This document shows, in pieces, positions 35,315-52,020 of a stretch of DNA of 64,000 bases; position 1 is the first letter of the stretch; each line of letters opens with the position of its first letter. The position numbers and the translations under genes are program-made. The DNA is from Desulfosoma sp. Lineage in GTDB: Bacteria; Desulfobacterota; Syntrophobacteria; Syntrophobacterales; DSM-9756. The stretch lies in assembly GCA_037481875.1 (NCBI GenBank), contig JBBFKY010000001.1, positions 473,782-537,781 on the forward strand. The letters run 5' to 3'. The notes under the pieces were generated by a model that ran no database searches, was not told the DNA's origin, and was given only the letters and a program-made list of their open reading frames with translations.

Positions 35315-36679
35315 ATGGGCTATAGGAGCTCATTCAAGAGTGTCAAATTGGGCTGGTTTCGGCACCTTAAGGACTTGAAATTCGAGTACGCAAGATCCGG
35401 AATCTCAAGTTCTCGGACAGGCTCCATAGGAGCTTGTACGACGTTGAGAGAAGGCCATGGTTCTCTTGGCAGCGCGGGCCACCGGCCCGCTCAAGATGCG
35501 GACTGGACGCCTGCGCTTCCCAGAAAAAAACCGTTCTCGAAAAAGCTTTTAGGAAGACGACTCAGGATAGCGCTTTTGTGCTTAATGCTGTGCGGTTGGG
35601 AGTGGGCGTGGGCTCAAGACACAACGCCGGCCTTTCTCAAGGTGAGCGGACCTTGCGGTCTGCGTTTTCCTGAAGATCATGGCGCCCATGAAGGGTATCG
35701 CACCGAGTGGTGGTACTATACCGGTAATGTGCGAACGGAGGCGGGTCGATTGTTTGGGTTTCAATTGACTTTTTTCCGATACCAAATGGTTCCCACAGCA
35801 GCCAACGAAAAGCGGCCCGATACGGTGTCTCCATGGCGCACAAACCAGATGTACTTTGCTCACGCCGCTCTGAGTGACGTGGAAAAAGGGCGCTTTCTTT
35901 ACGAAGAGAAAGCTCTGCGTGGAGCGGCGGGTCTCGCTGGTGCGGAAATGACCGAAGAAGGCATTCGGGTTTGGGTGCATCCTTGGACGGCGCGCCTCGG
36001 GCCGAACCATCATGAGCTTCTGGCGGAGGCGAGCCGTTTTTCGTTACATCTTCGTCTTGAGCCCCAAAAGCCGCTTGTGCTGCATGGCATCGAAGGCTAC
36101 AGCGTCAAGGGATCCAGCCCGGATCGTGCCAGTTGTTACTATTCGTGGACACGACTCCAAGTGCAAGGAACAGTGCGCACAGAAAATGAAGTTCTCCCTG
36201 TGACGGGTTATGCCTGGATGGATCATGAATACAGTTCCGAACCCTTGGAGCCGGGTCTTCAGGGCTGGGACTGGTTCAGCCTGCAGCTTGACGACGGCAC
36301 AGAATTCATGCTTTTCGGGCTGCGCCAAAAGGATGGAAGCTGGCATGGCGCATCCAGCGGCACCTTTGTGGAGGCTTCGGGAGCGGCACGCCATGTGGGT
36401 CGAGACGAGGTTGTCGTGGAAGTTCTTTCGACATGGAAAAGTCCTCGATCCAAAGCCGTCTACCCTTCAGCATGGCGACTTCAGGTGCCTAGTCTTGCAT
36501 TGGATCTTCGCATTCGTCCCAACTTGGCCGATCAGGAGTTGGAAACCCCGGCCAGCACAGGTGTCACCTATTGGGAGGGTTCCATATCCTTTGAGGGCAC
36601 TCGACAGGGAAAATCCGTGCGAGGCTTAGGCTACGTGGAACTCACGGGCTACGCCCGCCCCTTTGACGCTCCTTTGTAA
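35315..36679 (+). CDS. CrtC/AttH lipocalin-like hydratase family protein (start uncertain)
   Basis: Up to 454 residues. The real domain begins near residue 90 after a signal-like segment (ALLCLMLCGWEWAWAQ). Family motifs are FPEDHGAHEGYRTEWWYYTG, FGFQLTFFRYQM, the FAHAALSD block, SCYYSWTRLQVQG, and VTGYAWMDHEYSS (His/Asp/Glu cluster), ending with the second barrel half (GVTYWEGSISFEG, GYVELTGYARPF). The family includes carotenoid 1,2-hydratase and AttH; the actual substrate is unknown. The N-terminal ~80 residues are built from dispersed repeat DNA. A TTG at 35444, or a frameshift in the A7 run near 35520 fed from an ATG at 35496, are alternatives. Confidence 0.72.
   Translation: MGYRSSFKSVKLGWFRHLKDLKFEYARSGISSSRTGSIGACTTLREGHGSLGSAGHRPAQDADWTPALPRKKPFSKKLLGRRLRIALLCLMLCGWEWAWAQDTTPAFLKVSGPCGLRFPEDHGAHEGYRTEWWYYTGNVRTEAGRLFGFQLTFFRYQMVPTAANEKRPDTVSPWRTNQMYFAHAALSDVEKGRFLYEEKALRGAAGLAGAEMTEEGIRVWVHPWTARLGPNHHELLAEASRFSLHLRLEPQKPLVLHGIEGYSVKGSSPDRASCYYSWTRLQVQGTVRTENEVLPVTGYAWMDHEYSSEPLEPGLQGWDWFSLQLDDGTEFMLFGLRQKDGSWHGASSGTFVEASGAARHVGRDEVVVEVLSTWKSPRSKAVYPSAWRLQVPSLALDLRIRPNLADQELETPASTGVTYWEGSISFEGTRQGKSVRGLGYVELTGYARPFDAPL
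35340..35420 (+). repeat. Dispersed repeat fragment at the 5' end of the CrtC-like frame
   Basis: ATTGGGCTGGTTTCGGCACC and the end block GTTCTCGGACAGGCTCC match, in order and spacing, the 3' half of the copy at 26148-26278. The fragment is translated in the open frame starting at 35315, which argues against that start codon. Confidence 0.5.
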
Positions 36680-49893: not shown

Positions 49894-52020
49894 ATGGGAG
49901 ACAAGAGGGATTGTCGATCCTTCACTGAAAGGTTGAATGAAGCTGTAGACGAGGGAGCCTGGCATGAGGTTCGAGATCTTTTTCAAAACCTTGGAGCTCG
50001 AGCTTTGTCAGGGCTTAGCGAACAAACGTGGGAACTTATCTTAGACATTTTTTTTTGGCGAAAGGCATGTGAGAATTTTTCGTCGCCGAATCCGACGAAA
50101 GACTTGGTGGAACGTAAAGTCCGAAAGCTTCTTTCCGTTCCGCCTCGGTTTTTGGAAAGGAAGAGTTACCCTTTGGCCTCCGTTCTCAGGCTTGGAAACC
50201 CTATGCCTGAACCTTTTCGTAGAAGGGATTCACGGCAAACATGGAAAAAACACGTCAGGCATCTTCGTCGGCAGGTCTTGGAAAGAAACGGATCTCGGCA
50301 AACCCCTATGCCCTCTGAACACAAGGGTATGGAAACCCAAAACTATGTGACCCTGCGGGATTTGGCTTTTCTGTGGTCTCCTGGTTTTCAGTTCAAACGC
50401 CTGAATTTCCGACAAGGCCGATTCCTTCATGTGGGACGACTCCTGAAAGCCCCCGAACCGTTCCATTTTCCCACATCACGGCGCCTTAGATGGTCCGAAG
50501 GAAATTCAAAGCGTTCTTTCGAGGATGCAGACCCCGCTCTTACCTTGAAAGACGATCATGTCGCAGTCCGTCCGGTTCCCGGGAAGGATTTGGAAGAGCA
50601 TGGCTCCTTGTGGAAGGGAAGTTCCTTACGAGAGCCACGGAACGTTGTGTGGGGAGTGTTGGGGTGGCGAGGAAACCGATTCCTTGCAAGACTTGTGGAA
50701 GCGACGGCGGAAGAATGGCGCCGCGTGCGTGATCTGGCCTTTTCCCTCAGCAGGGCTCGACGCCGCGTGGTCTTGTCCCTGCATAATGCTTCGGCGGCGG
50801 CCTGTAGCGGCTGGGCGTTTGACCCGGTGGACGTTCTCCACGACGATCCGCGTCATAGTAATGCCTTTGTTCGAGAAGTTTCAGGCTCACTTCAGCGGCT
50901 TGGGCGGAACCGGCATGACGACCTGAAAGCTTGTCCGAGAACGAGAAAAGGCAGTGGCTTTTGGAGGAGCGCTAGCCTTCGGGCCGCCATTTATGAGGGC
51001 CGGACCCCCGCGGTCCCAAGTGAAAATCCATTCTCGGACGGCTCTTTAGACGTGGATCTGGTGCAAAAGCTTTGGCGGGCTTGGGAACGTCGTCTTGTTT
51101 ATCCAAAGGCACTTCACGTGCTGTGGGAAGCATCGGCTCGAACGGCTTTGGGCTTTGAAATGCTTTTTCAGGAAGCGGTGCAAGCCCTGGATGGGCTCTT
51201 GGAATTTAGATCCCCAAGTGACCTTGTGGGAAAAATTCCTTTGGCCTGGAGCGGCTGGGTCAGCCCTCATCAGCAACTGTGCTGGCAGGACATTTCCTGC
51301 TGGTGGCGGGAAAAGCGACGCTTATGGCTTCCTGGTTTCAGCATTTTGAAAACCTGTCTAGAAAAAGGGCAGGCCTGGTTGGAGACCGGTCGGCTGGAAG
51401 CCTGTGTGGTGCCATGGATCGACAAATTTTTCATGTCGTCTCAAAGGGATAGGGATGCATCCTATCTGGCGCTTTTCATGGAATGGTTGCACAAGGAAGA
51501 CCTTTCCCCCATTGTTCTTTTGTGGGAAGACACGACTCGATGTCGTCATCCCAGCCTGGCCGTGGCGTTAGAAAGGTCTTGGAGCCCTGAGGCGTTTCAG
51601 GGGATTGGAGTCTTCGGCAACGGGGCTTGTTCACGCCGGAATGCGAAAACCTTTCTGATGAGGGAAGCCGAACCGAAGCGACTTTACGTGCTGAGACCTT
51701 TCGACGATACGCATGCGCCTCAAACCTTGGAATCGGTCCTGTCCGGGCGAGTTTCGGAGAAAACCTTTTTCGATTCCTACGATTCCTCGTGGAAAGACGG
51801 CACCTATGCGCTCTATGCAGGGACACAAGCAGCTTTTCTGACATCCATCGCCACAGATGCGGAAATCCTGCCGGCGTGGGTGGTATTTGAGGGTGTGAAG
51901 ATGCCTTTGGGATGTTTTTTTCGGCGTATCCTAAGAAGCCTGGTCTTGGGTCGACCTCACGGCACCTTATTTCAACCCAAATGGATGCGTCTTTATGCTC
52001 GGTTTGCCAACCTTTTGTGA
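49894..52020 (+). CDS. Large orphan protein, no recognised family
   Basis: 708 residues from ATG 49894 (AGGA upstream); a start at 49837 has no ribosome site. Soluble, rich in Arg, Trp and Leu, no signal peptide or membrane helix. Clear helical segments include WERRLVYPKALHVLWEASAR and LALFMEWLHKEDLSPIVLLW. The strongest-looking conserved part is the C-terminal ~300 residues. Residues ~346-383 are encoded by a 116-bp element with inverted ends, so this part is an insertion and not ancestral sequence. It stands between repeat DNA and pcm with no obvious operon partner. I cannot assign a function. Confidence 0.65.
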   Translation: MGDKRDCRSFTERLNEAVDEGAWHEVRDLFQNLGARALSGLSEQTWELILDIFFWRKACENFSSPNPTKDLVERKVRKLLSVPPRFLERKSYPLASVLRLGNPMPEPFRRRDSRQTWKKHVRHLRRQVLERNGSRQTPMPSEHKGMETQNYVTLRDLAFLWSPGFQFKRLNFRQGRFLHVGRLLKAPEPFHFPTSRRLRWSEGNSKRSFEDADPALTLKDDHVAVRPVPGKDLEEHGSLWKGSSLREPRNVVWGVLGWRGNRFLARLVEATAEEWRRVRDLAFSLSRARRRVVLSLHNASAAACSGWAFDPVDVLHDDPRHSNAFVREVSGSLQRLGRNRHDDLKACPRTRKGSGFWRSASLRAAIYEGRTPAVPSENPFSDGSLDVDLVQKLWRAWERRLVYPKALHVLWEASARTALGFEMLFQEAVQALDGLLEFRSPSDLVGKIPLAWSGWVSPHQQLCWQDISCWWREKRRLWLPGFSILKTCLEKGQAWLETGRLEACVVPWIDKFFMSSQRDRDASYLALFMEWLHKEDLSPIVLLWEDTTRCRHPSLAVALERSWSPEAFQGIGVFGNGACSRRNAKTFLMREAEPKRLYVLRPFDDTHAPQTLESVLSGRVSEKTFFDSYDSSWKDGTYALYAGTQAAFLTSIATDAEILPAWVVFEGVKMPLGCFFRRILRSLVLGRPHGTLFQPKWMRLYARFANLL
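50928..51043 (+). mobile_element. MITE-like element inserted within the orphan gene
   Basis: Left end AGCTTGTCCGAGAAC (50928-50942) and right end TTCTCGGACGGCT (51031-51043) are near-perfect inverted repeats. About 90 bases of GC-rich sequence with small hairpins lie between them. The same end sequence occurs in several intergenic copies in this window. No transposase is encoded, as in MITEs. Translation reads through it. Confidence 0.6.

Follow-up and report, generated by a model that had tools for sequence, protein, structure and literature searches.

The 64,000-nucleotide stretch of DNA analysed here (hereinafter, the window) belongs to a 3.4 Mb genome, assembled in 19 contigs, of the sulfate-reducing genus Desulfosoma. 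An open reading frame of 708 codons within the window runs, as the preliminary description had stated, without interruption through a short element with inverted ends (Table 1). The same description had taken this gene for an orphan, which it is not: the protein is encoded in at least 45 of 59 related genomes, and 36 named homologous loci, mostly from Syntrophobacteria and other former Deltaproteobacteria, were recovered by an alignment-based search of genome contigs, a single-protein search having yielded none. The family is widespread but uncharacterised and contains the strongly conserved motifs PWIDKFF and YDSSWKD. Comparison of the protein with Pfam, NCBIfam and PDB folds detected no match, and a search of the PDB with the predicted structural model gave nothing better than an E-value of 1.9. 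Judging from the occurrence of homologues across the class, the gene predates the insertion.

Table 1. Parts of the element and its host gene, in positions of the window.
Feature	Position	Strand	Basis
Host gene, 708 codons, conserved uncharacterised family	49894..52020	+	ORF and homologues
Miniature inverted-repeat element (MITE) with both target copies, 127 bp (CTGA...TTAG, probable relics of CTAG...CTAG)	50923..51049	+	family end consensus, 129-bp CCTAGG-to-CCTAGG class, homologue spacing
Net insertion, 123 bp = 41 codons, K345-L385	within 50923..51049	+	homologue spacing
Element core, 119 bp	50927..51045	+	interval between CTAG positions equal to family consensus
Left target-site relic (probable), CTGA (consensus CTAG)	50923..50926	+	
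Right target-site relic (probable), TTAG (consensus CTAG)	51046..51049	+	
Left terminal inverted repeat, AAGCTTGTCCGAGAAC (consensus GAGCTTGTCCGAGAAC)	50927..50942	+	end word and family consensus
Right terminal inverted repeat, small compensating indels relative to consensus	51030..51045	-	
Internal G+C-rich palindrome, two hairpins, common to the family	50966..51017	+	copy alignment and consensus

Both inverted end words are found at the locus. An element indeed lies where the preliminary description had placed it, at 50928-51043, but its ends are further out, at 50923-51049, the flanks of the family being conserved to CCTAGG. In an alignment of 20 sequences, the insert is absent from all 19 homologues aligned over the site; none of these contains the insert residues, the presence of which in other species without repeat ends had been named as evidence against an insertion. 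By hand count, 63 residues separate FVREV from the position before DLVQKLW in this protein, compared to 22 in two other Desulfosoma genomes and in Desulfacinum hydrothermale, a difference of 41 codons; because the loop length in more distant homologues varies by one or a few residues, the exactness of this number rests on the three nearest relatives. Thus, the uninterrupted homologue that the preliminary description had asked for exists, and the segment missing from it, which is 123 bp long and divisible by three, corresponds to the element together with one copy of the target. The residues are added in frame, as suggested, although their net number is 41 rather than about 38.

The element belongs to a large repeat family. 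The end word TTGTCCGAGAA occurs exactly 26 times in the genome, as opposed to 3 occurrences of the same word read backwards, and the window contains 7 occurrences with at most one mismatch where 1.7 are expected. A covariance model of the core, built from 14 aligned copies, matches about 140 separate loci in the genome. The flanks of the copies are conserved out to CCTAGG on both sides, where conservation stops; 14 copies measure exactly 129 bp between the outer CCTAGG ends, and others are near 190 and 258 bp. The copy in the host gene, at 50922-51050, is of the 129-bp class and shows 74% identity to the consensus (that is, approximately 26% divergence). With its many loci, conserved inverted ends, 119-bp core and no transposase gene, the family has the properties of a MITE. 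Searches of Rfam, and of plasmid and phage collections with the family consensus, yielded no match. The DNA hairpin of the single copy at the locus is not significant (z = -1.6); the evidence for the element is the repeat family together with the uninterrupted homologues, not the fold of one copy. The reading of the segment as an ordinary variable loop of the protein family, with coincidental repeat ends, draws on the small differences in loop length among distant homologues, but it is refuted by the match of the DNA to a genome-wide family and by an insertion of identical length in an unrelated gene, and we consider it virtually excluded.

The host protein appears to be still under constraint. 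Of the 52 positions at which the other 19 sequences do not vary, it retains 50, which is on a par with its relatives. In an AlphaFold model built with 20 sequences (mean pLDDT 77, pTM 0.81), residues 347-381 of the insert have pLDDT below 50 and lie between helices 319-344 and 387-418, so that the insert forms, in the predicted structure, a loop of 41 residues that connects these helices. An insertion that made a conserved protein 41 residues longer could have inactivated it, the open frame then being a remnant that has not yet decayed. This is improbable given the retention of nearly all otherwise invariant positions and the divergence of the copy from the family consensus, which implies a time long enough for an unconstrained frame of 708 codons to gain stops. 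Of the two possibilities raised at the outset, tolerance of the insertion by the frame is thus supported, the gene being older than the insertion, represented across the class and conserved at the invariant positions, whereas evolution of the protein after the insertion is not.

The likely source of the element is indicated by insertion sequences (IS) in the related D. hydrothermale. Contigs of this genome end inside a repeated IS with GGAGCTTGTCCGAGAAT ends, which are always preceded by CTA (CTA/G at the boundary), and these contig ends encode fragments of an IS1182-type transposase (NF033551, 75 and 56 bits). The ends of the element match those of this IS1182-family IS, and the transposase fragments matching NF033551 are bounded by them; the element differs in having no transposase gene and would be a non-autonomous derivative. 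The IS is seen only in incomplete form, as breaks at contig ends in D. hydrothermale and as a 187-aa transposase remnant in a complete genome, G005 (L362:2587-3150). The C-terminal transposase peptide of the IS has no match in the present genome, a draft from which a copy may be missing, or in the two other Desulfosoma genomes (G000, G001 and G002, respectively); hence the copies here look like relics, and mobilisation in trans would be a historical event that we infer.

The IS data fit an element that starts with GAGC and is inserted into CTAG with a 4-bp duplication. At the present locus, the 127-bp interval from CTAG to CTAG minus the net insertion of 123 bp leaves 4 bp, which suggests that a 4-bp duplication took place here as well and that both target copies have since decayed, to CTGA and TTAG. 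Agreement between left and right flanks is best in the 6-bp-offset register that includes CTAG (z = 3.7), a modest signal given that it is the best of 2215 registers tested. Direct repeats of 4 bp have been reported for ISPse1, a member of the IS1182 family (PMC3281130). The element is most likely an IS1182-derived MITE that duplicates CTAG on insertion.

A different origin is conceivable for an element whose core consists of back-to-back G+C-rich hairpins: it could be of the REP/BIME type, with GTAG- or CGTC-tagged palindromes, and owe its spread to a RAYT-type Y1 transposase, in which case the outer inverted repeat would be incidental. The longer intergenic copies contain TAGGGGCGAGGCGCCGCCTCGCCCCTA hairpins resembling GTAG REPs, and in-frame REPs in ORFs are known (PMC3733652). 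However, Y1_Tnp (PF01797) has no match in this genome while the control genomes were positive, and the insertion unit ends at CTAG and at an inverted repeat matching that of the IS1182-family IS, not at the hairpins, which makes a REP-type origin unlikely.

Insertion of this MITE into genes is not confined to the locus. We identified 11 copies inside 9 conserved genes, of which 7 genes are well supported and 2 carry the element in variable linkers; besides the 708-codon gene, at least eight genes thus contain it in frame. In an RlmKL-like methyltransferase (C1:138943), the insert is in the same frame as the copy in the host gene, and exactly 41 residues are absent in 5 of 6 aligned relatives, the sixth being two residues shorter. 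Further in-frame copies are found in genes for UDG-4 (UDG family 4), LpxK, DnaX, a PAS histidine kinase and RecD, and there are two each in an ATP-grasp-GNAT fusion and a LivM-LivG fusion. For LpxK, the first ATP-grasp copy, LivM-LivG, RecD and the PAS kinase, homologues lack the segment, with length differences other than 41; for DnaX, UDG-4 and the second ATP-grasp-GNAT copy, which lie in variable linkers, the homologue evidence is weaker. Thus, in-frame insertion into conserved protein genes with uninterrupted homologues, the behaviour of protein-coding palindromic repeats, is observed in this family. The intragenic copies fall almost entirely (10 of 11) into the class in which the match spans exactly 118 bases (10 of 32, vs 1 of 108 others; p = 1e-6), an enrichment that, the covariance model having been built in part from intragenic copies, stands at p = 0.009 without the 14 training copies.

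The two-copy ATP-grasp-GNAT gene is located at G000:C5:112135-114096 (L067, L164), and about 97 residues around its first copy are absent in relatives; the two adjacent copies in the LivM-LivG gene (G000:C1:127788-129983, L116) occupy the linker between permease and ATPase. Long frames of a TolC-like protein, a TPR protein, an M28 peptidase, HemC and a NodT-like protein were left out of the intragenic count, as the element is probably upstream of the true start. Among the 19 copies read in Desulfacinum infernum, there was no clear intragenic case.

The survival of the reading frame follows from the length of the insertion and from the way in which CTAG is used in genes: 119 plus 4 is divisible by three, and CTAG in genes cannot take the phase that reads TAG. 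In the long ORFs of the window, CTAG is read 21 times as CTA/G, 3 times as xCT/AGx and never as xxC/TAG (the slash marks the codon boundary). The consensus element has no stop in any of the four accessible frames, two for each orientation; TAG itself closes the remaining two. Most intragenic copies are in the CTA/G frame, and several proteins contain the peptide ACPxTRKxxGFPGSAGLRPAxCxGGTPALPxxxPFSD; unrelated proteins share its part up to GGTPALP because CTA/G is the commonest phase.

The recurrence of this peptide in several proteins, all in frames that remain open, could also be taken to indicate that the insert took on a function, such as that of a binding loop, and has been kept by selection. 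We find this scarcely probable: the hosts are unrelated, several frames are used, the inserts are located in loops and linkers, and any genes that carry this element in one and the same codon phase must yield a common peptide; furthermore, the insert at the present locus is a low-confidence loop in the AlphaFold model. Selection could instead have acted on the element. It is a tentative and rather doubtful proposition that the short MITE class has been moulded so as to do no harm within genes, with a length plus duplication that is a multiple of three, a target that cannot occur in the stop phase and four open phases, so that coding DNA serves as its landing ground. The openness of the consensus frames is not significant on its own, being found in 10% of palindromic shuffles, and selection on the element is therefore put forward as a hypothesis rather than as a result. 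If correct, selection acting on the element would be how gene-compatible transposons come about, and the Rickettsia palindromic elements would represent one case of a wider class.

The reading that we favour, with an estimated probability of about 0.88, is that the insert in the 708-codon gene is an old MITE copy, mobilised in trans by a transposase of the IS1182 family and inserted at CTAG with a 4-bp duplication as a frame-neutral loop of 41 codons. In this model, a transposase of this family would recognise the GAGCTTGTCCGAGAA ends (a full-length IS being expected to have GAGCTTGTCCGAGAAT ends and a CTAG duplication) and move the MITE in trans. Insertion at CTAG would duplicate these 4 bp and add them to the 119-bp core, for a total of 123 bp or 41 codons. 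Given that an intragenic CTAG would be read as CTA/G or xCT/AGx but never as xxC/TAG, insertion in either orientation would give four phases, each stop-free in the consensus, such that a typical insertion would lengthen the protein rather than truncate it, and copies in surface loops or linkers would have persisted. The insert is probably translated, and its effect on the protein presumably neutral.

By analogy, the element matches in kind the Rickettsia palindromic elements (RPE) and their Wolbachia analogue (Ogata et al. 2000, 2002, 2005; reviewed in PMC2229807 and PMC10969869), a kind already known, here with a mechanism that is unusually explicit. RPE are repeats some 105-150 bp long, palindromic and with inverted repeats at their termini, that occur both between genes and in frame within conserved genes and are tolerated at the protein level. 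The likeness is one of behaviour and implies no homology. In-frame palindromic insertions are best known from intracellular Rickettsiales, and RPE hosts are intracellular in the same accounts, whereas the present element resides in a free-living sulfate reducer; furthermore, the present case offers a target site and a likely parent family of transposases, whereas the RPE target duplication is listed as unknown in PMC2229807. Since a transposase family, a target site and a simple arithmetic reason for the keeping of the frame can all be given, it becomes testable in Desulfacinum and Desulfosoma whether such elements are accidents that the host tolerates or whether these transposons have become adapted to coding DNA.

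Other known repeats share some of these features. MITEPsy1 of Pseudomonas syringae is likewise a short (100-nt) MITE and duplicates CTAG or YTAA, but it has different ends and is thought to derive from ISPsy2, and in-frame translation is not among the features reported in the part of the description cited here (PMC3189936). GTAG and CGTC REPs in ORFs (PMC3733652) and ERIC/RU-1 fusions (PMC2229807) resemble the element as short palindromic repeats translated in annotated proteins of free-living bacteria; they differ in being either REP units of smaller size or members of other sequence families, and no RAYT transposase was found here. A limited literature search retrieved no paper on such an element in Desulfosoma or Desulfacinum.

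Two further copies in the window are adjacent to genes. A longer composite copy with a TAGGGGCGAGGCGCCGCCTCGCCCCTA hairpin lies directly upstream of the 708-codon gene, from 49603 to about 49870. Another 129-bp copy, at 35425-35553, is located just 5' of a CrtC/lipocalin-like gene, the frame of which extends through the copy, so that the start codon may be inside the element.
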